23,902 bases of DNA from the IMG/VR virus record IMGVR_UViG_3300008952_000303, positions 1-23,902 of that record; one strand, written 5' to 3'. Position numbers and translations under genes: made by a program. The first letter of the stretch is position 1. Each line of letters opens with the position of its first letter. The notes under the pieces are model-generated. The model worked only from the letters and a program-made list of their open reading frames with translations. It did not search any database and had not been told where the DNA came from. This DNA comes from a virus. Shown here in pieces: positions 1 through 9,911 of the stretch.

Positions 1-2
1 AA

Positions 3-158
3 GAGGATCTGGATGCCGCTCGCAAGTTGAAGTGGGATCTGGTGAGAAAGATTTCACTTCTGGAAAACAATGCAGCTTTTGAGTGCCTTGAGAGTGGCGA
101 GAAGCTGTCCCTTCATGACAAGATAGAACACATTAAATCCAATGCATTTTTGTCTTGA
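3..158 (+). CDS. 3' end of an unidentified protein (5' truncated by window)
   Basis: An open frame enters from the left edge and runs 51 codons to a TGA at 156-158. The visible part is charged and looks helical (DLVRKISLLENNAAF), and ends KSNAFLS. I do not recognise it. It is the only frame open from the window edge to here. Its stop codon lies inside the -35 hexamer of the next promoter, which fits tightly packed phage genes. The upstream part and start lie outside the window, so no function is offered. Confidence 0.6.
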   Translation, partial: EDLDAARKLKWDLVRKISLLENNAAFECLESGEKLSLHDKIEHIKSNAFLS

Positions 159-183
159 CATCTTGAGGGAAATGACATACAAT
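155..183 (+). promoter_or_regulatory. sigma70-type promoter P1 (TTGACA-17-TACAAT)
   Basis: A perfect -35 TTGACA (155-160) is followed after 17 nt by TACAAT (178-183). Transcription would start near 190 and serve the genes from 243 onward. The TATAAT at 183-188 would give a 22-nt spacer, so the overlapping TACAAT is preferred. The -35 overlaps the stop codon of the preceding gene. This is host-type recognition, as expected for early phage transcription. Confidence 0.75.
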
Positions 184-197
184 ATAATTAGAAACTG

Positions 198-219
198 AGA
201 GAGGATATTCCTCTCTTTT
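198..219 (+). promoter_or_regulatory. leader hairpin with U-tract (attenuator-like)
   Basis: Just after the P1 start site, AGAGAGGA (198-205) pairs perfectly with TCCTCTCT (209-216) around a 3-nt loop, and T216-T219 follows. This is an 8-bp stem plus a short U-tract in a 5' leader. A related structure follows the promoter at 3543. It could be an intrinsic attenuator, an mRNA-stabilising 5' hairpin, or a way of masking the purine-rich AGAGAGGA. The stem is seen directly; the role is inferred. Confidence 0.45.
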
Positions 220-242
220 AACCCTCCTACCGAAAGGAACTA

Positions 243-437
243 ATGGGAGAAGTAAACACCACAACAGTTACCGCAAAGGTCAAAAAGACTTTTGAGGGTC
301 ATGATGGAAGTAACAGATTCTTTGAGTCTGGTGAGTCAATGTTTGACTCTGGTCGTTCAGTTGAACGTAATAAGATGAGGGTTGTCAAGACCATCATCTT
401 GAATGGTAAAACCTTTAACGTAGTTGATTTCAGTTAA
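243..437 (+). CDS. small hypothetical phage protein, 64 aa
   Basis: The start ATG at 243 has an AAAGGA ribosome site at 233-238. The product is 64 residues with no membrane segment or cysteine. A basic central stretch (SVERNKMRVVKTIIL) precedes a short C-terminal beta-like part (GKTFNVVDFS). I do not recognise the family. It is the first gene behind promoter P1 and is followed at once by a terminator-like hairpin, so it is probably the most abundant product of its unit. An early host-interaction role is possible but rests only on promoter type and position. Confidence 0.7.
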   Translation: MGEVNTTTVTAKVKKTFEGHDGSNRFFESGESMFDSGRSVERNKMRVVKTIILNGKTFNVVDFS

Positions 438-446
438 ACACACTAA

Positions 447-474
447 GGGGGTCAACAAGACCCCCAGAATTTTT
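447..474 (+). terminator. intrinsic terminator after the 64-aa gene
   Basis: GGGGGTC (447-453), loop AACAA, GACCCCC (459-465), then AGAATTTTT to 474. The 7-bp GC-rich stem is strong. The U-tract is offset by four bases, so termination may be partial and let some transcription reach the genes at 501 and 624, which have no clear promoter of their own. The AACAA loop recurs in the terminator at 2100-2120. Confidence 0.65.
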
Positions 475-486
475 GGAGAACTTTTC

Positions 487-504
487 ATGGGACAGTTGAT
501 ATGA
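487..504 (+). other. possible 5-codon minicistron coupled to the 501 gene
   Basis: A good ribosome site GGAGAA (475-480) is 6 nt before an ATG at 487, which opens only five codons (MGQLI) and stops at TGA 502-504. The stop overlaps the ATG at 501 as ATGA. The ribosome site is better placed for 487 than for 501, so ribosomes may translate the pentapeptide and restart at 501. This is inferred from spacing. The start at 487 could be incidental. Confidence 0.3.
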
Positions 505-614
505 GAATACCTAAGAGATGTGCTGGTTACTTGAGTGTAGCTGAAGGTTTGGTTTGTTGGACATTTGCTCTTGCACTTGTCTATGTTAATTTTGTAATTG
601 CTTTTTCTTTATAG
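501..614 (+). CDS. 37-aa single-pass membrane protein
   Basis: This short frame has the ATG at 501 and TAG at 612-614. A basic N-terminus (MRIPKRCAGY) precedes one hydrophobic stretch of about 22 residues at 15-37, including VCWTFALALVYVNFVIAF. That fits a single membrane helix with the positive end inside. It lies between the terminator at 447 and the gene at 624, with only 9 nt to the next start, so it is probably cotranscribed with 624. Initiation may depend on the overlapping five-codon frame at 487. I do not recognise a family. Tiny membrane proteins are common in phage early regions, often with unknown or host-envelope roles. Confidence 0.5.
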   Translation: MRIPKRCAGYLSVAEGLVCWTFALALVYVNFVIAFSL

Positions 615-623
615 GAGATTGTT

Positions 624-1010
624 ATGAGTGTATATGGTGAAAGAGTTGAAGCTCTAGTAGAAGGTTTGGATGCAATGTTGGATGCCATGAGAGATGACTA
701 TAAAAGATGGTCTGGTGGTTCCAATGCACGAAATCCTGAGAGGGTTCGTGATGAGAATGGTGAGACTGTTTCAGATCGAATGTGTCGAGAGTATTGTGCA
801 TCTCTTGAGTACTCGATGGGTAAGAAGTATGTCAAGGTCACTGATGGTACTAGTGTCAAGGCTTTTGTCGTTGCAGTTGATGATGACAAGAAGTTTGAGT
901 TCGGTGACATTCTAATGCCCGCTGGTTGGAAGACTCCTGCAAGGAACTTCCGTAGAGGGAATGTTCTGGATAGGTCTTTTGATCGTGTCCGTTGGACAGG
1001 TGCTTTGTAA
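624..1010 (+). CDS. conserved hypothetical phage protein, 128 aa
   Basis: ATG 624 follows an AGGAG site at 613-617. The first 60 residues are charged and helical. The C-terminal half (about 65-128) looks like a small beta fold: a KYVKVTDGTSVKAFVV strand pair, then FGDILMPAGWKTPARNF and RGNV with a final VRWTGAL. From memory, this C-terminal pattern (GDIL, W-x-PA-NF, RGNV, RVRWTG) recurs in uncharacterised proteins of tailed phages, so I treat it as a real conserved family; this is recall, not a search. No catalytic motif is evident. An unusual nested inverted repeat starts 8 nt after its stop. Confidence 0.75.
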   Translation: MSVYGERVEALVEGLDAMLDAMRDDYKRWSGGSNARNPERVRDENGETVSDRMCREYCASLEYSMGKKYVKVTDGTSVKAFVVAVDDDKKFEFGDILMPAGWKTPARNFRRGNVLDRSFDRVRWTGAL

Positions 1011-1018
1011 TGACCACA

Positions 1019-1067
1019 TATCCGTCATTTATCCGTCATGTCAATAGTGACGGAAAAGTGACGGATA
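1019..1067 (+). repeat. nested inverted repeat of four TCCGTCA/TGACGGA boxes
   Basis: Arms 1019-1038 and 1048-1067 pair over 20 positions with one G-U and one A-A mismatch, around a 9-nt loop. Each arm holds two copies of the same box: TATCCGTCA at 1019 and 1030, then TGACGGA at 1048 and TGACGGATA at 1059. A run of nine A (1067-1075) follows and leads into the -35 of promoter P2. There is no U-tract on the + strand, so it is not a standard intrinsic terminator. An operator for a dimeric or tetrameric regulator, or an RNA hairpin guarding the upstream mRNA 3' end, would fit. Confidence 0.7.
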
Positions 1068-1078
1068 AAAAAAAAGAC

Positions 1079-1106
1079 TTGACAATTTACCTCTATTTGG
1101 TATAAT
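1079..1106 (+). promoter_or_regulatory. sigma70-type promoter P2 (TTGACA-16-TATAAT)
   Basis: A consensus -35 TTGACA (1079-1084) and consensus -10 TATAAT (1101-1106) are separated by 16 nt. TGG before the -10 makes it an extended -10. The A-tract at 1067-1075 sits where an UP element would. Expected start is near 1113; the first gene begins at 1146. It shares AAAAAAGACTTGACAA with the promoters at 2723 and 3543. Confidence 0.85.
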
Positions 1107-1145
1107 ATAAACTGATGATTGAGAGAAACCTTTTCGGAGAATGAA

Positions 1146-1442
1146 ATGAGTGATGTTGCTAATGAAATTTACAGGACACTAGGTGGTAATCGCTTTCGTG
1201 TCATGACAGGTGCCAAAATGATGGTGTCAACTGAGAATGGGATTCGTATGAGAATTGGTCGAAACAAGACCAATGCGAATTTCATGGAAGTCAGTCTGAA
1301 TGGTCTTGATCTTTATGATGTCACTTTCGCCAAGGTAACTAAGATGGGTGAAATGAAGTCAGTCAGGACATACGACAATGTTTATAATGATATGCTGGTG
1401 AGTCTCTTTGAGTCTCATACAGGAATGTACACTACTCTCTAA
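1146..1442 (+). CDS. conserved hypothetical phage protein, 98 aa
   Basis: I chose ATG 1146 because GGAGA (1136-1140) lies 5 nt upstream. An in-frame TTG at 1119 is so close to the predicted start site that it would lack a ribosome site. The product has a LGGNRFRVMTGAK motif at about 12-24, IRMRIGRN at about 33-40, a central VSLNGLDLYDVTF strand region, and a C-terminus ending SHTGMYTTL. From memory, LGGN-F-MTGAK plus a TGLYTSL-like tail marks a widespread family of small uncharacterised phage proteins. No activity is known to me. It is the first gene of the P2 unit, followed by the 58-aa gene 10 nt later. Confidence 0.8.
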   Translation: MSDVANEIYRTLGGNRFRVMTGAKMMVSTENGIRMRIGRNKTNANFMEVSLNGLDLYDVTFAKVTKMGEMKSVRTYDNVYNDMLVSLFESHTGMYTTL

Positions 1443-1452
1443 TAGGAGAATT

Positions 1453-1629
1453 ATGGAAAGTTTGGAAATCGCAGAAAGTATCGCAAGAGATTTTGCAATT
1501 GAAAGACGAGCTCGTTTGGATGCTCGGATTGCAGAAATTGCTGAGGAGCATGAGATGGATTCCTTGGACATTGCTCGGCTTCGTGCTAGGGCTATTGAAG
1601 CAATGGATCGGGGTGAGTTGGTTTTATAA
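1453..1629 (+). CDS. small charged helical protein, 58 aa
   Basis: ATG 1453 follows TAGGAGAA (1443-1450), giving 58 residues. Extending to an in-frame TTG at 1408 would overlap the previous gene and ignore this ribosome site. The sequence is almost wholly helix-forming and highly charged, with alternating Arg/Glu/Ala/Ile runs (IARDFAIERRARLDARIAEI). A short amphipathic coiled coil is plausible. I do not recognise it. It is the second gene of the P2 unit, and the next promoter begins 9 nt after its stop. Confidence 0.65.
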   Translation: MESLEIAESIARDFAIERRARLDARIAEIAEEHEMDSLDIARLRARAIEAMDRGELVL

Positions 1630-1638
1630 AACCAGGCC

Positions 1639-1667
1639 TTGACAAATTGTCTCAAGTGTGATATTAT
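1639..1667 (+). promoter_or_regulatory. sigma70-type promoter, extended -10 (TTGACA-17-TATTAT)
   Basis: TTGACA (1639-1644) and TATTAT (1662-1667) are 17 nt apart, and TGA directly before the -10 makes an extended -10 element. It starts right after the 58-aa gene and serves the gene at 1709. It lacks the A-tract and GAC prefix seen in the promoters at 1079, 2723 and 3543, but has the same CTTGACAA core. Confidence 0.8.
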
Positions 1668-1708
1668 ATAATTGTTGAGTTAATTGATAACCTCTTTCGG
1701 AGATCGAA

Positions 1709-2092
1709 ATGAGTAAAAGTACAGAACGAGAGCTTTACGAAAAAGCTCATCTCGCAGGGATGCGTGCCGGAAACGGCGAAAAAGTAACCCCAATGATCGT
1801 TGGGACTCCTTCAACCCCTTTTGGAAGTGACATTGATCACTCCAAGCCCACCTACTTTGTTGAGGGTGGTGCGTGTGGTTTCGCTGGTGTGGTAATTAAG
1901 CCCGCCCGTGGTAAGTTCGTTTCACTTCTCAAGAAGTATGGTCTTGGTTGGAAGCACTATTATGGTGGTTTCTACATGACTTGCCGAGAGTTCGGACAGT
2001 CTCTTGCTCGTAAAGAGGCGTATTGTGAAGCCTTCGCCAGAGTTCTTGGTGAAGAAGGTATCCGATGTTATGTTGACAGTCGGATGGATTGA
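1709..2092 (+). CDS. conserved hypothetical phage protein, 127 aa
   Basis: ATG 1709 follows CGGAG (1698-1702). Visible blocks are AHLAGMRAGN near residue 13, a central ACGFAGVVIKPARGKFV (about 55-71), YYGGFYMTC near 84-92, and a C-terminal SLARKEAYCEAFARVL followed by GI-CYVDSRMD. From memory, GFAWVNIKP, YYGG, QSMTRKEAYA and a terminal SRMD are hallmarks of a widely distributed uncharacterised phage family that this matches end to end, so the length looks complete. No active site is recognised. It is the only gene between its own extended -10 promoter and a strong terminator (2100-2120), a layout suited to a highly expressed early protein. Confidence 0.85.
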   Translation: MSKSTERELYEKAHLAGMRAGNGEKVTPMIVGTPSTPFGSDIDHSKPTYFVEGGACGFAGVVIKPARGKFVSLLKKYGLGWKHYYGGFYMTCREFGQSLARKEAYCEAFARVLGEEGIRCYVDSRMD

Positions 2093-2099
2093 TAACCTT

Positions 2100-2120
2100 G
2101 GGGGCAACAAGCCCCCTTTT
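2100..2120 (+). terminator. intrinsic terminator after the 127-aa gene
   Basis: GGGGGC (2100-2105), loop AACAA, GCCCCC (2111-2116), then TTTT (2117-2120). This is a compact all-GC 6-bp stem with an immediate U-tract, 7 nt after the stop codon. The loop matches that of the terminator at 447-474. The next gene at 2134 has no visible promoter, so read-through or a weak promoter must feed it. Confidence 0.85.
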
Positions 2121-2133
2121 CTATAGGATGAAT

Positions 2134-2421
2134 ATGGGTAGAACAAAAAAGAATACATATTGGGAACTGATTCGTAGGTTTCGAGAATCTGAATATGAAC
2201 CGATTCGTGAAGAGTCTCTTGGATTGTATTGCTCGAAAGAGACTGCAATGAACGAGAGGGAGATCTATTTGGAGACAGAACTTCATGAGGTTCACAATGA
2301 AGAGACAGTTGAATTAAAGATCCGAAAATACAAGGAGACTATTGAAGAGGTCGAACTGATCTCTATGGATGAACTTAATGCTCTCGCTGACTCTTTTGAA
2401 AGTGAGACATACTATGGTTGA
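2134..2421 (+). CDS. hypothetical acidic protein, 95 aa
   Basis: The start is placed at ATG 2134, which has AGGA (2125-2128) 5 nt upstream. An ATG at 2128 overlaps that site, and an in-frame TTG at 2089 would read through the terminator, so both are unlikely. The product is very rich in Glu and Arg, mostly helical (YWELIRRFRESEYEPIREES, later LETELHEVHNEETVELKIRK), and ends SFESETYYG. No domain is recognised. Its last codons overlap the start of a tiny membrane-protein gene at 2414. It probably forms one unit with the 2414 and 2488 genes. Confidence 0.65.
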   Translation: MGRTKKNTYWELIRRFRESEYEPIREESLGLYCSKETAMNEREIYLETELHEVHNEETVELKIRKYKETIEEVELISMDELNALADSFESETYYG

Positions 2422-2506
2422 TTTATTTCTACTACTCAGTTTTGCCTCGGTGGGGCTGGGTATTTTACTTCTAATGAAAGGTATAGAATGTCTGATAAAA
2501 AAGTAA
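2414..2506 (+). CDS. 30-aa single-pass membrane protein, overlapping both neighbours
   Basis: ATG 2414 lies inside the end of the previous gene (8-nt overlap) and the frame closes at TAA 2504-2506, 19 nt into the next gene. The product is one continuous hydrophobic helix, DLFLLLSFASVGLGILLLM at about 3-21, with a basic tail (KGIECLIKK). It lacks a strong ribosome site, but the overlap allows translational coupling. It fills what would otherwise be a 66-nt gap. No family is recognised. It resembles the 37-aa gene at 501 in architecture, not in sequence. Confidence 0.5.
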   Translation: MVDLFLLLSFASVGLGILLLMKGIECLIKK

Positions 2507-2733
2507 TGGGTGCAATGTCACCACAACGTGAGTGGATTCGTGAGAACATGAAACCAAAAACAAGTCCCAAGACCCTAGAGTTACAAGCTGCTAAACAAGT
2601 GGCTAGTAAAGCCTTTTTGTTCTGGGATACCTCTAAAGGTGAGTATCGTAACGGAGAGAATCGTAAGGAATACAAGAGGCTTCGTCTTGCAGAAAAAAAG
2701 ATGAATGCAAGGAAAAAAAGACTTGACAAATGA
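2488..2733 (+). CDS. small basic hypothetical protein, 81 aa
   Basis: ATG 2488 follows AAAGG about 6 nt upstream. The product is strongly basic with a helical, Lys/Arg-rich C-terminal third (EYKRLRLAEKKMNARKKRLD). The middle has a short aromatic stretch (AFLFWDTSKGEYRNG). No zinc-binding cysteines or recognised domain are present. The composition would suit nucleic-acid binding, but that is inference. The last codons overlap the -35 region of the next promoter (2723-2728), so its coding sequence also carries promoter information. Confidence 0.65.
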   Translation: MSDKKVMGAMSPQREWIRENMKPKTSPKTLELQAAKQVASKAFLFWDTSKGEYRNGENRKEYKRLRLAEKKMNARKKRLDK

Positions 2734-2751
2734 TTGTCCTTTTGATATACT
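2723..2751 (+). promoter_or_regulatory. sigma70-type promoter P3 (TTGACA-17-TATACT, extended -10)
   Basis: TTGACA (2723-2728) and TATACT (2746-2751) are 17 nt apart with TGA before the -10. An A-tract and GAC precede the -35, as at 1079 and 3543. It lies partly inside the 81-aa gene. The downstream box GATGAGAGAGGAA (2762-2774) doubles as the ribosome site of the gene at 2777. Confidence 0.85.
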
Positions 2752-2776
2752 GTAAGTGAAAGATGAGAGAGGAATT

Positions 2777-2905
2777 ATGAAAACACTATCTGAAATCAAA
2801 AAAATCGATGCCGTGCTTCGCATGACTCGTTTCTCAACCAAACGGAAAGGTTGTGACAAGAAACGCCTTTCCAAATCCCTTTGCCGTAAGAAAGTGAGGT
2901 TCTAA
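2777..2905 (+). CDS. 42-aa highly basic peptide
   Basis: ATG 2777 follows GAGAGGA with ideal spacing, right behind promoter P3, and the frame closes at TAA 2903-2905. The stop shares one base with the next start (TAATG). The peptide has 16 Lys/Arg in 42 residues and two cysteines (26 and 36), separated by KKRLSKSLC-type sequence. The strong promoter, ribosome site and coupled stop-start make it a convincing gene despite its size. RNA or DNA binding, or inhibition of a host factor, would suit the charge, but no homolog is recognised. Confidence 0.65.
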   Translation: MKTLSEIKKIDAVLRMTRFSTKRKGCDKKRLSKSLCRKKVRF

Positions 2906-3255
2906 TGAAATTCTTTGCTGGTGATATTATTAAGATGTCTGGTAAGACCAGACATGGTAAGAATCGTATTCGTGAGAATGGCGATTTGTGGAAGGTCATC
3001 AATACTGATGGTCAAGACTCCTCTGTTCTTTCTACTAAGATTTGTGTGATTCCTGTAGATTTGGAACGTAGAGAGAATTGGAGATGGATTGACATTCCAG
3101 AGGATGAACACATGGAAATTGTTGATACCGATCTTGAGGAGCCAGAACACGTTGTTGTGGAACGCAAGGTCGATGAAGCAATAGAAAGAATGCATCGCTC
3201 GGAAGCGATTGATATGTTCAATGATCCAGACATGAATTGGTCTGGACTAAGGTAG
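2905..3255 (+). CDS. hypothetical protein, 116 aa
   Basis: ATG 2905 overlaps the stop of the 42-aa gene by one base, so translation is probably coupled. The N-terminal half looks like a small beta barrel (MKFFAGDIIKMSG, then DLWKVINTDG and VLSTKICVIPVDL), a pattern seen in SH3-like or KOW-like folds. The C-terminal half is acidic and helical (VVVERKVDEAIERMHRSEAI). No specific family is recognised. It ends at 3255, where a structured gap without convincing genes begins. It is the last gene of the P3 unit. Confidence 0.7.
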   Translation: MKFFAGDIIKMSGKTRHGKNRIRENGDLWKVINTDGQDSSVLSTKICVIPVDLERRENWRWIDIPEDEHMEIVDTDLEEPEHVVVERKVDEAIERMHRSEAIDMFNDPDMNWSGLR

Positions 3256-3259
3256 CCTA

Positions 3260-3365
3260 AGTCAACCGAGGTAAGCGAGGTGGATGAGGTTCCAAGACGC
3301 TATAGTGAGATAACATCTCTGATGCGTGGGTAGTTCCCCTAGTTGTGCTTGGAGGTAGGTTGATT
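3260..3365 (+). ncRNA. candidate structured RNA, multibranch fold
   Basis: No plausible reading frame lies here, but nested complementary segments do. AGTCAACC (3260-3267) pairs with GGTTGATT (3358-3365) with one G-U. TTCCAAG (3290-3296) pairs with CTTGGAG (3348-3354) with one T-G. ACGC (3297-3300) pairs with GCGT (3324-3327), enclosing GAGAT-AAC-ATCTC (3307-3319). The region is less AT-rich than its surroundings. It may be the structured 3' UTR of the P3 transcript, ending at the terminator immediately downstream. It matches no RNA family I know. Short stems can arise by chance, so confidence is low. Confidence 0.35.
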
Positions 3366-3366
3366 A

Positions 3367-3417
3367 TGTGGTCCCTGTTTGTCAGTGTTCAGTAACGGAA
3401 CAGGGGCCATGGTTTTT
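3367..3417 (+). terminator. strong intrinsic terminator of the P3 unit
   Basis: GGTCCCTGTT (3370-3379) pairs with AACAGGGGCC (3399-3408) with one wobble. T3369-A3409 extends the stem, with wobble pairs beyond, and T3413-T3417 follow. The 19-nt loop is long. The wobble is a G-U pair on the + strand and would be A-C on the - strand, which supports + strand function. It ends the transcript that carries the 42-aa and 116-aa genes. Confidence 0.75.
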
Positions 3418-3419
3418 CA

Positions 3420-3535
3420 TTTAACTTTTTTGACAAGGGGTCTAACAATTCTGCCCGTTCTCATGGTGGTGAGACAAAGGGATGTGAAGGACGGCAGGCC
3501 GGAAGTCCCAATGACCCTTTGTTAAAAAAGTTAAA
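3420..3535 (+). ncRNA. candidate 116-nt hairpin RNA with 23-bp closing stem
   Basis: Arms 3420-3442 and 3513-3535 are complementary over all 23 positions, with only two wobbles (G3432-T3523 and G3437-T3518). Both are G-U on the + strand but C-A on the - strand, so the structure is better as + strand RNA. The 70-nt interior can form CTGCC-C-GTTC (3451-3460) with GGACGGCAG (3489-3497), or alternatively GGGA (3479-3482) with TCCC (3506-3509). These two cross and so suggest a pseudoknot or switch. The 3' arm abuts the A-tract of the next promoter. No promoter of its own is visible. I do not recognise a family. Confidence 0.45.
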
Positions 3536-3542
3536 AAAAGAC

Positions 3543-3571
3543 TTGACAATGGTTAGATCGTTTGATATAAT
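3543..3571 (+). promoter_or_regulatory. sigma70-type promoter P4 (TTGACA-17-TATAAT, extended -10)
   Basis: Both hexamers are perfect: TTGACA (3543-3548) and TATAAT (3566-3571), 17 nt apart, with TGA directly before the -10. An A-rich tract with GAC precedes it. This is the best promoter in the window. It drives the 182-aa gene at 3639 after a leader of about 60 nt that holds a hairpin. Confidence 0.9.
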
Positions 3572-3586
3572 ACTAATGTAACGATG

Positions 3587-3617
3587 AGAGAGGAAATAAA
3601 TCCTTTCTTTCTTTTTT
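3587..3617 (+). promoter_or_regulatory. leader hairpin with U-rich tract (attenuator-like)
   Basis: AGAGAGGA (3587-3594) pairs with TCCTTTCT (3601-3608) with one wobble around a 6-nt loop, followed by a U-rich tract ending TTTTTT (3612-3617). The same 5' arm sequence forms the leader hairpin at 198-219. The position between promoter and gene suits an attenuator. A second small stem downstream, CTCC (3620-3623) with GGAG (3628-3631), would cover the ribosome site of the gene at 3639. Confidence 0.45.
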
Positions 3618-3638
3618 AACTCCCTTTGGAGATTTGAT

Positions 3639-4187
3639 ATGAGTACAAATTCAGTTGTTGCCTATCTGAGAAGTGATGGGTCAGTTGTTAGTTCGTATGT
3701 CCATTACGATGGATATGAAACTGGTGTCGGAATGACACTTCTGGAACATTATAGTTCTGAAGAATCGGCAGAGAGGGTTTCCTCTGCTGGGTATTTCAGT
3801 TCCCTGTCAGAAGACATGGAAGTTTCCCTTTCAGAGTCAGTTCATACAGAAGAAGCTGAGATCTTTGAGTCAAGGTCTGAGTTTGAAGAATATCTGAGAG
3901 AAAACAGTCACCTTGAGTTTGGGTATCTCTGGACTGAAGGAAGATGGATTGTTTCTACTTGGTCTACTACTGTTTCAGGAATCGGAAGGTTCGCTGAATA
4001 CAGTTCAACTTGGAATGGGTTTTCAGATCTGGTCATTTCCTTTGTTCGTGAAGGACGAAGGACTGTTTCTCGACTGAGATCTTACGGAGATGAATACGCC
4101 GAGTATTCTGAAATCCTTGAAGAAGTGGTTGATAGATACCACAGTTCATCTATGAAAGAAATTGCGAGAGAAGCTATGTCTGCGTAG
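3639..4187 (+). CDS. conserved hypothetical phage protein, 182 aa
   Basis: ATG 3639 lies 7 nt after GGAG (3628-3631). The N-terminus has TNSVVAYL, YVHYDGYETGVGMTLLEHYS (about 21-40) and GYFSSLSEDM (about 51-60). From memory, a family of uncharacterised phage proteins carries a similar sequence (HWDGYPEGVG-LLEHY followed by GDISSL), and this is probably a member. The rest is unusually rich in Ser and Glu, with aromatic residues in the middle (EFGYLWTEGRWIVSTW). No catalytic site is recognised. It stands alone between the strongest promoter in the window and a strong terminator, so it should be highly expressed early in infection. Confidence 0.85.
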   Translation: MSTNSVVAYLRSDGSVVSSYVHYDGYETGVGMTLLEHYSSEESAERVSSAGYFSSLSEDMEVSLSESVHTEEAEIFESRSEFEEYLRENSHLEFGYLWTEGRWIVSTWSTTVSGIGRFAEYSSTWNGFSDLVISFVREGRRTVSRLRSYGDEYAEYSEILEEVVDRYHSSSMKEIAREAMSA

Positions 4188-4221
4188 TTTCATACATACT
4201 TGGATTTACTTTCATTTTTGA

Positions 4222-4253
4222 GGGGAACACTTTCGGGTGTTCCCCCTTTTTTT
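4222..4253 (+). terminator. strong intrinsic terminator at the early/late boundary
   Basis: GGGGAACAC (4222-4230), loop TTTCGG, GTGTTCCCC (4237-4245), then C and seven T (4247-4253). A perfect 9-bp stem with a full U-tract makes this the clearest terminator in the window. It separates the sigma70-promoter units upstream from the late structural genes downstream. Confidence 0.9.
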
Positions 4254-4268
4254 AGGCCCACTTATTAG

Positions 4269-4276
4269 AATAAATA
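4269..4276 (+). promoter_or_regulatory. T4-type late promoter box, one mismatch (AATAAATA)
   Basis: AATAAATA differs from the T4 late consensus TATAAATA only in its first base. It lies just past the boundary terminator and ahead of the gp5-like gene. In T4 the box spans about -13 to -6, which would place +1 at about 4282, the first base of the gp5-like start codon. Exact matches occur at 7581 and 13311. Confidence 0.5.
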
Positions 4277-4281
4277 TTCTT

Positions 4282-5631
4282 ATGGAAAATGCATCTTATT
4301 TTATGGGTAAAGATGGTTTCAATTGGTTCGTTGGAGTAGTTGAAGATCGTCAAGATCCAGAACATTGTAGTAGAGTTCGTGTTAGGGCTTTAGGGTATCA
4401 TACTGAGAATACCTCTAAAATTCCTACATCCGATTTACCTTGGGCCCATGTAATGATGCCAGTCACAGCTGGTGGTAATTCTGGTATTGGTGTTTCACCT
4501 CATTTTCTTCTGGAAGGTACTTGGGTTCTGGGATTCTTTAGAGATCCTGCAATGCAGGAACCTATTATTTTAGGTACATTGCCAGGAAAGAATACAGGAA
4601 GTCCGTCAGAATTTACAGAAATAGCCTCAAGTGAAGCTGGTGGATTTTCTAAAGGGGGTGGATTTAAAGATCCTAATAGTAAATACCCAACATCATCTTA
4701 TGTGAATATGGCAGATACCAATCTGCTTGCACAAAATGATCCTAGTGATACTTCGAGTGGTTGGGACTTTTCCAAGTTTACTCAAGCTCATGCTTCTTAT
4801 GCCATTAAGGGCGGTTCTGACAAAAATGATAAAGTTCATACTAAATGGAAATATCTTGTTGGAAAATCCTTAAAAGAAACAGAATTACAACAAGAACCAT
4901 CTACTCAGGAAAAATCTGCCTATCCTTTCAATCATGTATTTGAATCAGAGAGTGGACATTATGTAGAGTTTGATGATACAGAAGGAAATGAAAGAATCCA
5001 AATTTTCCATAGATTAGGTACATTTTTTGAAATTGATAAGGGTGGTAATGTTGTCCTCAAGACTCCCGATCATGTTAATATGACTACTATTATTGGAGGA
5101 AATCAAGATACTTATATTAAAGGAAATTATTCTTTGACTGTTGATGGAAATATGAATATACATTGTACAGGAGAAGAAACTAGGGATGGGGCTAAATCTT
5201 CAATTGGGTCTGATCCTCTAGGAACAGTTTCTTATGTCATATCCAAAGGAAATTTGTATGAAACTATCACAGAAGGAAATAGAGAAACTACGATAACTGC
5301 TGGAACGGAAACAGTAACCATTGAGGGGGCTGTTATACACACTTACAATAATACTCTTACCGAAACAATTACTGGAGCGGTTGCCCAGACATATTCAGAT
5401 ACATGGACACAAGATGTATCTAAAGCTGTTTCTCAAACCTTTAGTGATACATGGACTATTGATGTATCTAAAGCCGTTACACAAACTTTTGGAGCCGCTC
5501 TCAAAACAGAAATTACTGGTGCAACAAATATTGAAAGTACTGGTGCATTAACAATTAAGACCTCTGCGGCGTTGACAGCCGAAGCATCTGCTGCTACAAC
5601 GATCAAAGGTGCAACAGTGAGTTTTAACTAA
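4282..5631 (+). CDS. 5: gp5-like baseplate central spike/hub protein, lysozyme domain absent
   Basis: A 449-aa homolog of T4 gp5, the trimeric spike at the baseplate centre. Residues 10-110 form the OB-fold domain, with NWFVGVVEDR (14-23) identical to T4 gp5 as I recall it, followed by RVRV-, LPW and SGIG landmarks. Residues 130-150 match the T4 linker (GFKDPNSKYP, DTNLL). The C-terminal part restarts at about 228 with FNHVFESESGHYVEFDDTEG, like T4's ETESGH-EFDDTPG. It continues as a triple beta-helix of V/I-x-G repeats. The T4 lysozyme domain between these parts is missing, which explains the length (T4: 575 aa); I recall the same in cyanophages. The ATG at 4282 was chosen because a GTG at 4237 lies within the terminator. 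No ribosome site is visible; ATG 4303 is an alternative. Confidence 0.92.
   Translation: MENASYFMGKDGFNWFVGVVEDRQDPEHCSRVRVRALGYHTENTSKIPTSDLPWAHVMMPVTAGGNSGIGVSPHFLLEGTWVLGFFRDPAMQEPIILGTLPGKNTGSPSEFTEIASSEAGGFSKGGGFKDPNSKYPTSSYVNMADTNLLAQNDPSDTSSGWDFSKFTQAHASYAIKGGSDKNDKVHTKWKYLVGKSLKETELQQEPSTQEKSAYPFNHVFESESGHYVEFDDTEGNERIQIFHRLGTFFEIDKGGNVVLKTPDHVNMTTIIGGNQDTYIKGNYSLTVDGNMNIHCTGEETRDGAKSSIGSDPLGTVSYVISKGNLYETITEGNRETTITAGTETVTIEGAVIHTYNNTLTETITGAVAQTYSDTWTQDVSKAVSQTFSDTWTIDVSKAVTQTFGAALKTEITGATNIESTGALTIKTSAALTAEASAATTIKGATVSFN
5338..5529 (+). repeat. 16-residue beta-helix repeats in the gp5-like protein
   Basis: Residues 353-416 are four consecutive 16-residue units: HTYNNTLTETITGAVA, QTYSDTWTQDVSKAVS, QTFSDTWTIDVSKAVT, QTFGAALKTEITGATN. 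The middle pair (DNA 5386-5433 and 5434-5481) is nearly identical in protein and clearly related in DNA, suggesting recent duplication. Sixteen residues equal two of the octapeptide steps of the T4 gp5 spike beta-helix, so copy number would change needle length. Confidence 0.75.
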
Positions 5632-6392
5632 TGCCCGCCAGACCTCAATATATGACGATGCACACTGTTACTGTAGTAGGAGATGATGGTGGGGATGTCC
5701 TTGATGCATCAATAACCCCACCTACTCCTATAACCGAGCCACCACTTAATAATAAAACATCTTTTACAATGACTACTCCGGCAGTAATGTCGGTAACAGA
5801 AGCTATAAATTTACCCTTTACTGCTCCACCAGCTGGTGGTCCAGGCACTCCATTAGATGGTTTAGAAGAACTTGCAGGCCCTATAATAACTTTAAATTCT
5901 GTTTCAATGCCCAGTTCATATTTGGGAGATTCTTTAAGTGGACTCAATCATCCATCAACATTACCAACTACTGCAACTGGTACTTTTGATATATTCCCAG
6001 ATATTAAAATAAAGATAGAAAATGATGGTGTCGTTGCTGTAGCAGGAGTTGGTACTTCAGTTACAACTGCAACGATTGAGGGAGATATTTTAGAATTAAA
6101 TGATTGGGTTGTGCCTTGGACTCCTGAAGCATATATTCCAAAATTTAATGGATCGGATTATGCAAAAGTTAAAAGTGAAGGGTATGGTAGAGATAATGGA
6201 GAATTTATTATAACTTTTGAGTTAGGTTTTGGGTTAAAACCACCACTTGCAGCTCATGCTAGTTCTACTACTGCAACTTTTACTATAAAAATCCTAAATA
6301 ACTTTAGTACAGATAGGGATCGGTATAAACAAGATTATGAAAATGCATATAAGAGTTTAGATGCAGTTCCCGATCCTAGCACATGGCAATAA
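5631..6392 (+). CDS. unrecognised spike-cluster protein, 253 aa
   Basis: The ATG at 5631 shares its A with the stop of the gp5-like gene (TAATG), so translation is coupled. The first 90 residues are rich in Pro, Thr and Gly (ITPPTPITEPP, LPFTAPPAGGPGTP) and look disordered. From about 115 a beta-rich domain follows (GTFDIFPDIKIKIENDGVV, then FIITFELGFGL and TATFTIKIL). It ends in a charged helix (DRDRYKQDYENAYKSL). I do not recognise it. Lying between the spike protein and the PAAR tip protein suggests a structural or assembly role at the baseplate hub, but this rests on position only. Confidence 0.75.
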   Translation: MPARPQYMTMHTVTVVGDDGGDVLDASITPPTPITEPPLNNKTSFTMTTPAVMSVTEAINLPFTAPPAGGPGTPLDGLEELAGPIITLNSVSMPSSYLGDSLSGLNHPSTLPTTATGTFDIFPDIKIKIENDGVVAVAGVGTSVTTATIEGDILELNDWVVPWTPEAYIPKFNGSDYAKVKSEGYGRDNGEFIITFELGFGLKPPLAAHASSTTATFTIKILNNFSTDRDRYKQDYENAYKSLDAVPDPSTWQ

Positions 6393-6404: not shown

Positions 6405-6710
6405 ATGGCCGGATCAATGGCAAGAGTAGGTGATCAAACTTCTGGACATGGACCATACCCACCAAATGTACTTGGTGGTCCAGGCGCCCCTAGTGTTATG
6501 TTAAATGGAGCTGCGGCCGCAGTAGTGGGTGATGGAACAGTATCACCTTGTGTGGCACCAAATTCACCAGTTCTCAATGGCACTATAACTCAAGGTTCTC
6601 CTACTGCAACCGCTGAAGGTAAAAAGATTGCGAGAATAGGTGATATGCTTTCATGTGGTTGTATGATTGTAGGTGGTGGATCTACTGTAGGTGCAGGAAG
6701 TGGTGCATAA
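6405..6710 (+). CDS. 5.4: PAAR-repeat spike tip protein (T4 gp5.4-like)
   Basis: ATG 6405 follows AAGGAG (6394-6399). The 101-residue product has the PAAR pattern: SMARVGDQTSGHG at 4-16, VMLNGAAAAVVGDG (31-44), TITQGSPTATAEGKKIARIGD (60-80), then SCGC at 83-86. H15, C49, C84 and C86 are candidate metal ligands; PAAR tips usually bind one metal with His/Cys near the apex. The family forms a small cone on the end of VgrG/gp5 spikes and pierces the outer membrane. Its place two genes after the gp5-like spike agrees. The length is typical for a bare PAAR tip without a toxin extension. Confidence 0.9.
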   Translation: MAGSMARVGDQTSGHGPYPPNVLGGPGAPSVMLNGAAAAVVGDGTVSPCVAPNSPVLNGTITQGSPTATAEGKKIARIGDMLSCGCMIVGGGSTVGAGSGA

Positions 6711-8030: not shown

Positions 8031-9911
8031 ATGGCTATCAATTCAAAGGGAAAAATAGAAATTACTGATCTGGATTTTGATGCAGTCAAAAATAATTTCA
8101 AGACTTTCTTATCACAACAAACTCAATTTTCAGACTATAATTTTGAAGGATCTGGAATGGCAGTTCTCATGGATCTTCTTGCATATAATACTCATTACCA
8201 AGCATTCCATGCAAATATGCTTGCAAATGAAATGTTCTTGGATTCTTCATTACTTAGAGCTAGTGCAGTATCTCATGCAAAGTCTTTGGGGTATCTTCCA
8301 GCCTCCATGAGAGCATCAACCGCAACTATTTCAGTTACAGTTAAAGGTGTTCCTATTACACAGACTTCTCTTACATTGTCATCGGGTGCGGTTTTCACAA
8401 CTACTTTAGATTCAGTTAATTATCAATTTGTAACAACTACAGATCATACTGCCACATCTGATACAGGGACTTTCCAATTTGATGAGGTTAAAGTTTACGA
8501 GGGAACATGGTCCTCTTTTAATTATACAGTAAACTCTTCTAATTTAGAACAACAATTTATTATCCCATCGGCCCGAGCTGATACTAATACACTTAGAGTT
8601 CGGGTGCAGACTTCATCTTCAGATACTACTACAGAAACCTATACTCTGAATACAGATTATACAACTTTAACTTCTACTTCAAAGGTATATTTTTTGCAAG
8701 AGGTTGAGAATGGTAGATTTGAGGTATACTTTGGCGATGGAGTTTTTGGATATAAACCTATAGATGGTAATATTGTTATATTGGATTATGTGGTTACGAA
8801 TGGAGATCTTGCTGATGGAGCATCTGCATTTACTTCAGCTTCAACAGTAGGTGGATATTCCAATGTGACTGCATTAACAACATCATCAGCTTCAGGTGGA
8901 GGTATAGGTGAAACAGTAGACTCAATTAAGTTTAATGCACCTTTAAAATATGCATCACAAGGAAGAGCTGTCACACCAGATGATTATAAGTCTATTCTTC
9001 CAAGTGTATATTCAAATATAAAATCAGTACAGGTTTGGGGTGGTGAAGATAATGATCCTGCAATTTACGGAAGGGTTTATATTTCTATCAGACCAAAAAC
9101 TGGATCTTCATTGACTACCACAACCAAGAATCAGATCATAACAAGTTTGAAAAATTACAATGTGGCCTCAATAACTCCTGTTATTGTTGATCCAGAGATA
9201 CTTCAACTCGTTCTATCTACTACAGTGAAATATAATTCAACTCTTACTACCAAGACCAATTCAGATTTAAAGGCATTGGCAGAAACAACAATTTCTACAT
9301 TCAATACAAATAATCTTGAGAAATTTGATGCAGTATTCAGGCATTCAAATCTACTTAAAGAACTCGATGCAACTGATGTATCAATATTGTCAAGTACAGT
9401 TGCAGTAAAATTAAAAAGATCTATTTCTTTGACACTAGGAACATCTACCAAGTATACAATAAATTTCAATAATACAGCATATCACCCAGCAGCTGGATGG
9501 ACACAGACTGTAGTGGAATCTGGTGGATTCTATTTGTCTGGAAATACAAATGTTCAGTATATAGATGATGATGGAAATGGTAATATTAGAACTTTCTATC
9601 TGTTAGGTGGTACTACAAAGACAATCACTAATGCAGCTGCAGGAACTATTAATTATACCACAGGACAAATAGTTCTCACTTCATTTAATATTACAGCGGT
9701 AGTTTCATCTTCTGGAAAATTGGATATTACAATCAAACCAGATTCAAATGATGTTATACCTGTCAGAAATCAAGTTGTTGAAATTGATACTGTATCGAGT
9801 ACAGTTACGGCTGAGATTGATACGTTTGCAACAGGTGAATCAATTGCCGGTGTAGGTTACACCACAAAAAGTTCGACAGCCGCAGTAGGAAGCGCATACA
9901 CAACTTCATAA
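8031..9911 (+). CDS. 6: gp6-like baseplate wedge protein
   Basis: A 626-aa protein, near T4 gp6 (660 aa), the wedge subunit that dimerises to join neighbouring wedges into a ring. The N-terminus has the family signature: FEGSGMAVLMDLLAYNTHYQ (about 41-60), then ANEMFLDSSLLRASAV and SLGYLP. A central Baseplate_J-type block includes YFGDGVFGYKPIDGN (about 234-248) and YASQGRAVTPDDYKSILP (about 306-323). The C-terminus is Ser/Thr/Val-rich beta sequence. It begins one base after gp25 and ends one base before the next gene, with no clear ribosome site, so translation is probably coupled. Identity is supported by both motifs and order. Confidence 0.92.
   Translation: MAINSKGKIEITDLDFDAVKNNFKTFLSQQTQFSDYNFEGSGMAVLMDLLAYNTHYQAFHANMLANEMFLDSSLLRASAVSHAKSLGYLPASMRASTATISVTVKGVPITQTSLTLSSGAVFTTTLDSVNYQFVTTTDHTATSDTGTFQFDEVKVYEGTWSSFNYTVNSSNLEQQFIIPSARADTNTLRVRVQTSSSDTTTETYTLNTDYTTLTSTSKVYFLQEVENGRFEVYFGDGVFGYKPIDGNIVILDYVVTNGDLADGASAFTSASTVGGYSNVTALTTSSASGGGIGETVDSIKFNAPLKYASQGRAVTPDDYKSILPSVYSNIKSVQVWGGEDNDPAIYGRVYISIRPKTGSSLTTTTKNQIITSLKNYNVASITPVIVDPEILQLVLSTTVKYNSTLTTKTNSDLKALAETTISTFNTNNLEKFDAVFRHSNLLKELDATDVSILSSTVAVKLKRSISLTLGTSTKYTINFNNTAYHPAAGWTQTVVESGGFYLSGNTNVQYIDDDGNGNIRTFYLLGGTTKTITNAAAGTINYTTGQIVLTSFNITAVVSSSGKLDITIKPDSNDVIPVRNQVVEIDTVSSTVTAEIDTFATGESIAGVGYTTKSSTAAVGSAYTTS

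Follow-up and report, generated by a model that had tools for sequence, protein, structure and literature searches.

RNase III processing sites occur in phage early regions, those of the T7 early region being an example. The 116-nt hairpin analysed here resembles them in that its long double-stranded stem is intergenic, is on the coding strand and stands at a gene boundary in an early-type region. Unlike T7-type sites, however, it comes after a terminator and immediately ahead of a promoter, and it carries a 70-nt loop.

Intrinsic terminators are also stable hairpins that end a transcription unit. In contrast to them, the stem studied here has no U-run on either strand (there is an A-tract on the + strand), and a separate canonical terminator is located upstream. 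The hairpin was considered as an intrinsic terminator in its own right and rejected: the stem is followed by AAAAGAC on the + strand and by TGAAAAACC, with no T-run, on the − strand, and the hairpin is absent from the terminator-like sites.

A third comparison is with prokaryotic MITEs and REP-like palindromes, which have been reviewed (PMC10969869). They are short non-coding palindromes that are present in some close relatives and absent from others, as is the case here. In contrast to them, the hairpin is single-copy and shows neither a visible target duplication nor a linked transposase.

We read the element as a lineage-specific junction hairpin in which only the stem appears constrained and which, if functional, would serve read-through RNA as a double-stranded site of processing or insulation. 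We give this reading a probability of about 0.38.

Setting and stem of the hairpin

The hairpin lies in a 23,902-base IMG/VR virus contig, referred to below as the window, which carries T4-like baseplate and tail genes (Table 1). Among the isolates listed, Pelagibacter phage Mosig gave the best E-value for the hub protein (40% identity over 72%). The relatives of the window are IMG/VR contigs from T4-like phages, and the host of the window phage is likely marine. Small genes fill the first 4 kb of the window, several of them with a sigma-70-type promoter of their own. In window 1-4200 and in the relatives L014, L020 and L013, cassettes of small genes have been shuffled between phages, and several of these cassettes carry a promoter of their own.

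Table 1. Features of the hairpin locus and of the loci compared with it. Positions refer to the window unless a contig is named.
Feature	Position	Strand	Remarks
TCCGTCA palindrome	1018..1069	+	50 bp, two-storey; RNA fold z -9.31
Conserved structured RNA, separate from the hairpin	3256..3374	+	directly after the stop of ORF 2905-3255; R1 model 131 bits
Terminator-like hairpin with U-run, ending the upstream conserved RNA	3368..3417	+	z -3.26; alignment A1
5' arm of the 23-bp stem	3420..3442	+	outer half T-rich, inner half G-rich
Interior loop, 70 nt	3443..3512	+	structure at chance level
3' arm of the 23-bp stem	3513..3535	+	A-tract in UP-element position of the downstream promoter
Sigma-70-type promoter, TTGACA-17-TATAAT	3543..3571	+	12/12; TG before -10; 7 nt after the hairpin
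gp5-like hub	4237-5631		PHROG 430, E 1.5e-87
PAAR-like gene	6405-6710
G009 hairpin	L256:19669-19780	-	112 nt, 16-bp stem, T5/A5 ends, one G-U on +, 80-nt loop, z -5.3

A preliminary description of the locus had placed the hairpin between a strong terminator and the strongest promoter. The setting stands, with a terminator-like hairpin on one side and a promoter matching the consensus at 12/12 positions on the other, but this promoter is not the only one of its strength, as the one at 1079-1106 also scores 12/12.

The two arms do pair at all 23 positions, as had been claimed, and the only wobbles (3432-3523 and 3437-3518) are both G-U on the + strand. The + strand hairpin has an MFE of -45.2 kcal/mol (z -5.18), a value that none of the 200 shuffles reached, while the − strand gives -33.5 (z -2.79). 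The longer stretch that the preliminary description suggested folding, 3256-3640, likewise folds better than its shuffles (z -3.43). The stem is the longest in the window by 10 bp, the runner-up being 13 bp, and the next best in 353 kb of related-phage loci has 16–17 bp. As an outlier against the window, the related-phage loci and the shuffles, the inverted repeat is not due to chance.

The interior, on the other hand, folds no better than its shuffles on either strand (z +0.22 on + and z +0.98 on −). A stem far beyond chance around an interior at chance fits a function that requires the stem only. Two classes of element have a form that this stem shares. With its two G-U pairs, the 23-bp duplex on the transcribed strand is (near-)perfect and roughly two turns long, as RNase III sites are. 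It is equally an inverted repeat without coding content (tblastn of the interior frame returned nothing), as are the terminal repeats of MITEs.

According to our main reading, a palindrome would have arisen, by insertion or by gradual growth, where the terminator of the upstream RNA unit meets the A-tract of the promoter that follows. A polymerase passing the terminator would then produce RNA with a 23-bp double strand, which could be extended by pairing between the terminator U-run and the promoter A-tract. An RNase III-type enzyme might cut this duplex, or the duplex might block exonucleases, and either event would detach the read-through RNA from the message that is strongly expressed downstream. 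We infer all three of the elements involved, namely the read-through transcription of the hairpin, its cutting and its importance.

A function that requires a long stem alone, is placed where two transcription units meet and makes no demand on the sequence would best fit double-strand processing of read-through RNA or the blocking of exonucleases on it. Against this stands the location of the hairpin behind a terminator, so that little RNA may arrive.

Distribution among relatives and origin

Three other contigs, near-identical to the window and bearing different metagenome identifiers, carry the hairpin unchanged, with 5–9 substitutions elsewhere over 7.8–17.3 kb aligned. The hairpin is thus not an assembly slip of one contig. 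The relatives L009, L012 and L013 keep all its neighbours, from the upstream ORF through the conserved RNA, the terminator and the promoter to the downstream gene (70–73% protein identity), but have no hairpin; the hairpin-free junction of L013 reads ...GGGGCCATGGTTTTTTTGAAAAAAGTGAAAAAAAGACTTGAC.... Because relatives with the same flanks lack the element, its insertion in the window lineage is likely, a gain being the parsimonious reading. The relatives evidently manage without it, which argues that the hairpin is not needed at the 3543 promoter.

Parts of the arms have counterparts in hairpin-free relatives. The outer letters of the 5' arm, TTTTTCATTTAA, resemble the 3' flank of the terminator, TTTTTCAYYTAAT, in L014 and L141, both of which have no hairpin, and the outer letters of the 3' arm, AAAAAAGTTAAAAAAAGAC, match AAAAAAGTGAAAAAAAGAC before the promoter in the hairpin-free L013. 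What is new in the window lineage is the inner part, CAAGGGGTC...GACCCTTTGTT. Compared with the empty site of L013, the T/A-rich flanks make a target-site duplication hard to call.

Exact-pattern scans of viral contigs with pieces of the arm and of the interior returned only the near-identical contigs or, as far as the matches were examined, chance matches. The collections gave only identical copies, and the syntenic relatives lack the element; no orthologue with compensatory arm changes was found among them, and selection at the RNA level is therefore unproven.

These observations bear directly on the idea that a mobile or selfish element, a palindrome of MITE- or REP-like kind, has settled at the terminator/promoter junction and is of no use to the phage. 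Such an origin would account for its absence from three syntenic relatives and for the unstructured interior, and it has a parallel in the TCCGTCA family described below, which is demonstrably dispersed over non-orthologous sites (window, L020, G010/G017). However, the hairpin is single in its own contigs, with no copy in nine other related records and no match in phage or plasmid records, and it has no clear target duplication, while its outer arm letters are common to the flanks of hairpin-free relatives. We consider a purely selfish insertion doubtful, though to be taken seriously. Taken on its own, the statement that the element is a recently inserted junction hairpin and not a folded regulatory RNA is probably correct.

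Other hairpins beside strong promoters

The window contains a second palindrome next to a strong promoter. This TCCGTCA palindrome is located between a stop codon (1010) and the perfect promoter at 1079, and copies 86–92% identical to it are found at L020:7975-8029, G010:C1:18928-18985 and G017:C1:20032-20089. It carries four TCCGTCA/TGACGGA heptamers, with a spacing of about 11 bp in each arm, and occurs in both orientations and at non-orthologous sites. In the window, G010 and G017 it precedes a promoter; in L020 it lies behind the terminator of the conserved RNA, and no recognisable promoter was found behind it there. It thus shares with the window hairpin, in 3/4 places, the slot adjoining the A-tract and the -35 of a strong promoter, but it differs in being unrelated in sequence, 50 bp long and dispersed in several phages.

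A further case, the G009 hairpin, came from a scan of related contigs for long stems. Its overall size, stem and loop are comparable to those of the window hairpin (Table 1), and it ends 3 nt before the -35 TTGACA. It starts at the stop codon of the gene before it, which it overlaps, and so lies in the 3' end of an upstream message. Here the two differ, as the G009 hairpin sits directly in a gene end with no intervening terminator, and there is no significant sequence similarity between them. Relatives of its downstream gene occur in L014, G001 and G010, where different sequence and no such hairpin stands in front. In the window hairpin and the G009 hairpin alike, the + strand fold is favoured over the − strand fold by 10–12 kcal/mol, and every non-Watson-Crick pair in either stem, three in total, is G-U on the transcribed strand.

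A homology of the two interiors, for which CATGGNGGT...ATGTG..GGA seemed to be common ground, was considered and rejected, since the local score was reached by 1087/3000 shuffles and the global score by 335/3000.

Two smaller intergenic hairpins were also noted. One is in G010 (L259, reverse strand near 6333-6378), with 10 bp and a loop of 26 nt, ending 6 nt short of a promoter; the other is in G007 (L251, reverse strand 9410-9480), with 14 bp and a 43-nt loop, before a gene start.

Among 53 strong promoters in kin contigs, 3 had a stem with a score of at least 10 ending at most 10 nt from the -35, compared with 0.47 expected from random positions, a post hoc comparison with a small count from which the G009 hairpin was left out, having missed the A-tract filter. 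The score of the window hairpin was reached by 0/12,000 random positions. A single hairpin of this kind is ordinary; that several unrelated ones occupy one slot lends it some interest. Unrelated long hairpins at most 10 nt from the -35 of strong promoters might form a convergent class of phage insulators, which would guard against incoming transcription or split off read-through RNA; we regard such a class as unlikely. If the slot is functional, these marine T4-like phages would insulate gene cassettes by bare hairpins instead of terminators.

The same slot could also be understood at the level of DNA, with a palindrome beside an A-tract in UP position binding a phage or host regulator, or extruding a cruciform, and so tuning the promoter. 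In several cases the palindromes are only 3–9 nt from the -35 region. Both 12/12 promoters of the window (1079 and 3543) have an adjoining palindrome and the 11/12 promoters at 155, 1639 and 2723 have none, and the TCCGTCA family offers four heptamer half-sites and both orientations. On the other side, the hairpins are unrelated in sequence and thus ill-suited to one binding protein, the L020 copy has no recognisable promoter behind it, and the same promoter is found in relatives without any palindrome. We would not expect a DNA-level element to be the correct explanation of the window hairpin.

For the TCCGTCA family, sequence points to an action at the DNA level, as the mismatch favours either strand: the single mismatch of the outer arm is G-U on + in the window and C-A on + in G010. 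This example also weakens the argument, made in the preliminary description, that wobbles confined to one strand set the hairpin apart from chance or DNA-level palindromes. Two transition mismatches agree on one named strand with a probability of 1/4.

The preliminary description further proposed a discrete small RNA or a two-state regulatory RNA, a notion to which the strong + strand fold and the similar size of the architectures in two phages (116 and 112 nt) lend some weight. Against it, the interior shows no structure beyond chance on either strand, the interiors of the window and G009 hairpins are not significantly alike, and the crossing helices are commonplace. The base pairs of the two helices do exist, but 13% of the interior's dinucleotide shuffles also contained a helix of 9 bp or more that a 4-bp Watson-Crick helix crosses, so that neither a pseudoknot nor a switch is indicated.

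Nor did the search for an RNA gene give positive results. The Rfam comparison suggested earlier yielded 0 matches for the window hairpin at the gathering score, and a permissive scan of it produced only chance miRNA/sRNA scores, far below gathering. A scan for sigma-70-type sites found no promoter-like site pointing into 3420-3535. We therefore hold a structured small RNA to be quite unlikely, whereas a processing site or a transcription-related element, also among the uses first suggested, is still the most plausible.

Two other candidates within the hairpin were discarded. A small ORF at 3430-3525 (or from 3463) has no Shine-Dalgarno and no relatives by tblastn, and a twister-like reading of the interior CUAACA..CUGCC, suggested by resemblance only, found no support in the permissive Rfam scan.

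Chance or an assembly artefact is highly improbable: long palindromes are a known type of chimera, but an artefact is refuted by the identical hairpin in three contigs of different metagenome identifiers, unless all come from one sample, and chance by the shuffles.

The conserved RNA upstream

Comparative evidence gives good support to the conclusion that the segment 3256-3374, missed in the first reading, is a new conserved structured RNA. Reached by way of the hairpin, it is the firmer discovery of the two, given its strong covariation and the absence of an Rfam family. It has six helices, and its terminator hairpin extends to 3417. Homologues were found in 13 other distinct phage sequences, namely in L009, L012, L013, L014, L141, L015, L019, L020, L105 and L107 and in remote ones (E ~1e-7) at L038:380-496, L039:362-476 and L040:1814-1928.

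In the alignment of 14 distinct sequences, pairing is kept in 99.3% of cells and both sides have changed in 22 of the 30 pairs; this alignment was fitted to the model, and an unfitted one still gives 11 covarying pairs. Neither the 500 shuffles nor any slid version approached the observed covariation.

The homologues begin at or just after the stop codons of different genes. The RNA follows other genes in L014, L015, L019 and L020 than it does in the window, L009, L012 and L013. Rfam gave no family for it in the window or in those relatives that were scanned, and a scan of genome contigs returned one unrelated match only. A brief search of the literature turned up no account of this RNA, which is no proof of its novelty.

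Several minor observations concern the surroundings of the RNA. The loop of its terminator, CAGUGUUCAGUAACGG (approximately 3383-3397; window and L009-L020), is nearly invariant though the stem varies. The remote homologues in L038, L039 and L040 are each followed downstream by a tmRNA of the permuted type (Rfam RF04321), and GUUCAGUAAC is found in the tmRNA region of these contigs, too. For the tmRNAs of L038 and L040, ARAGORN gives the tag ADNNDYIPVGYVAVAA.
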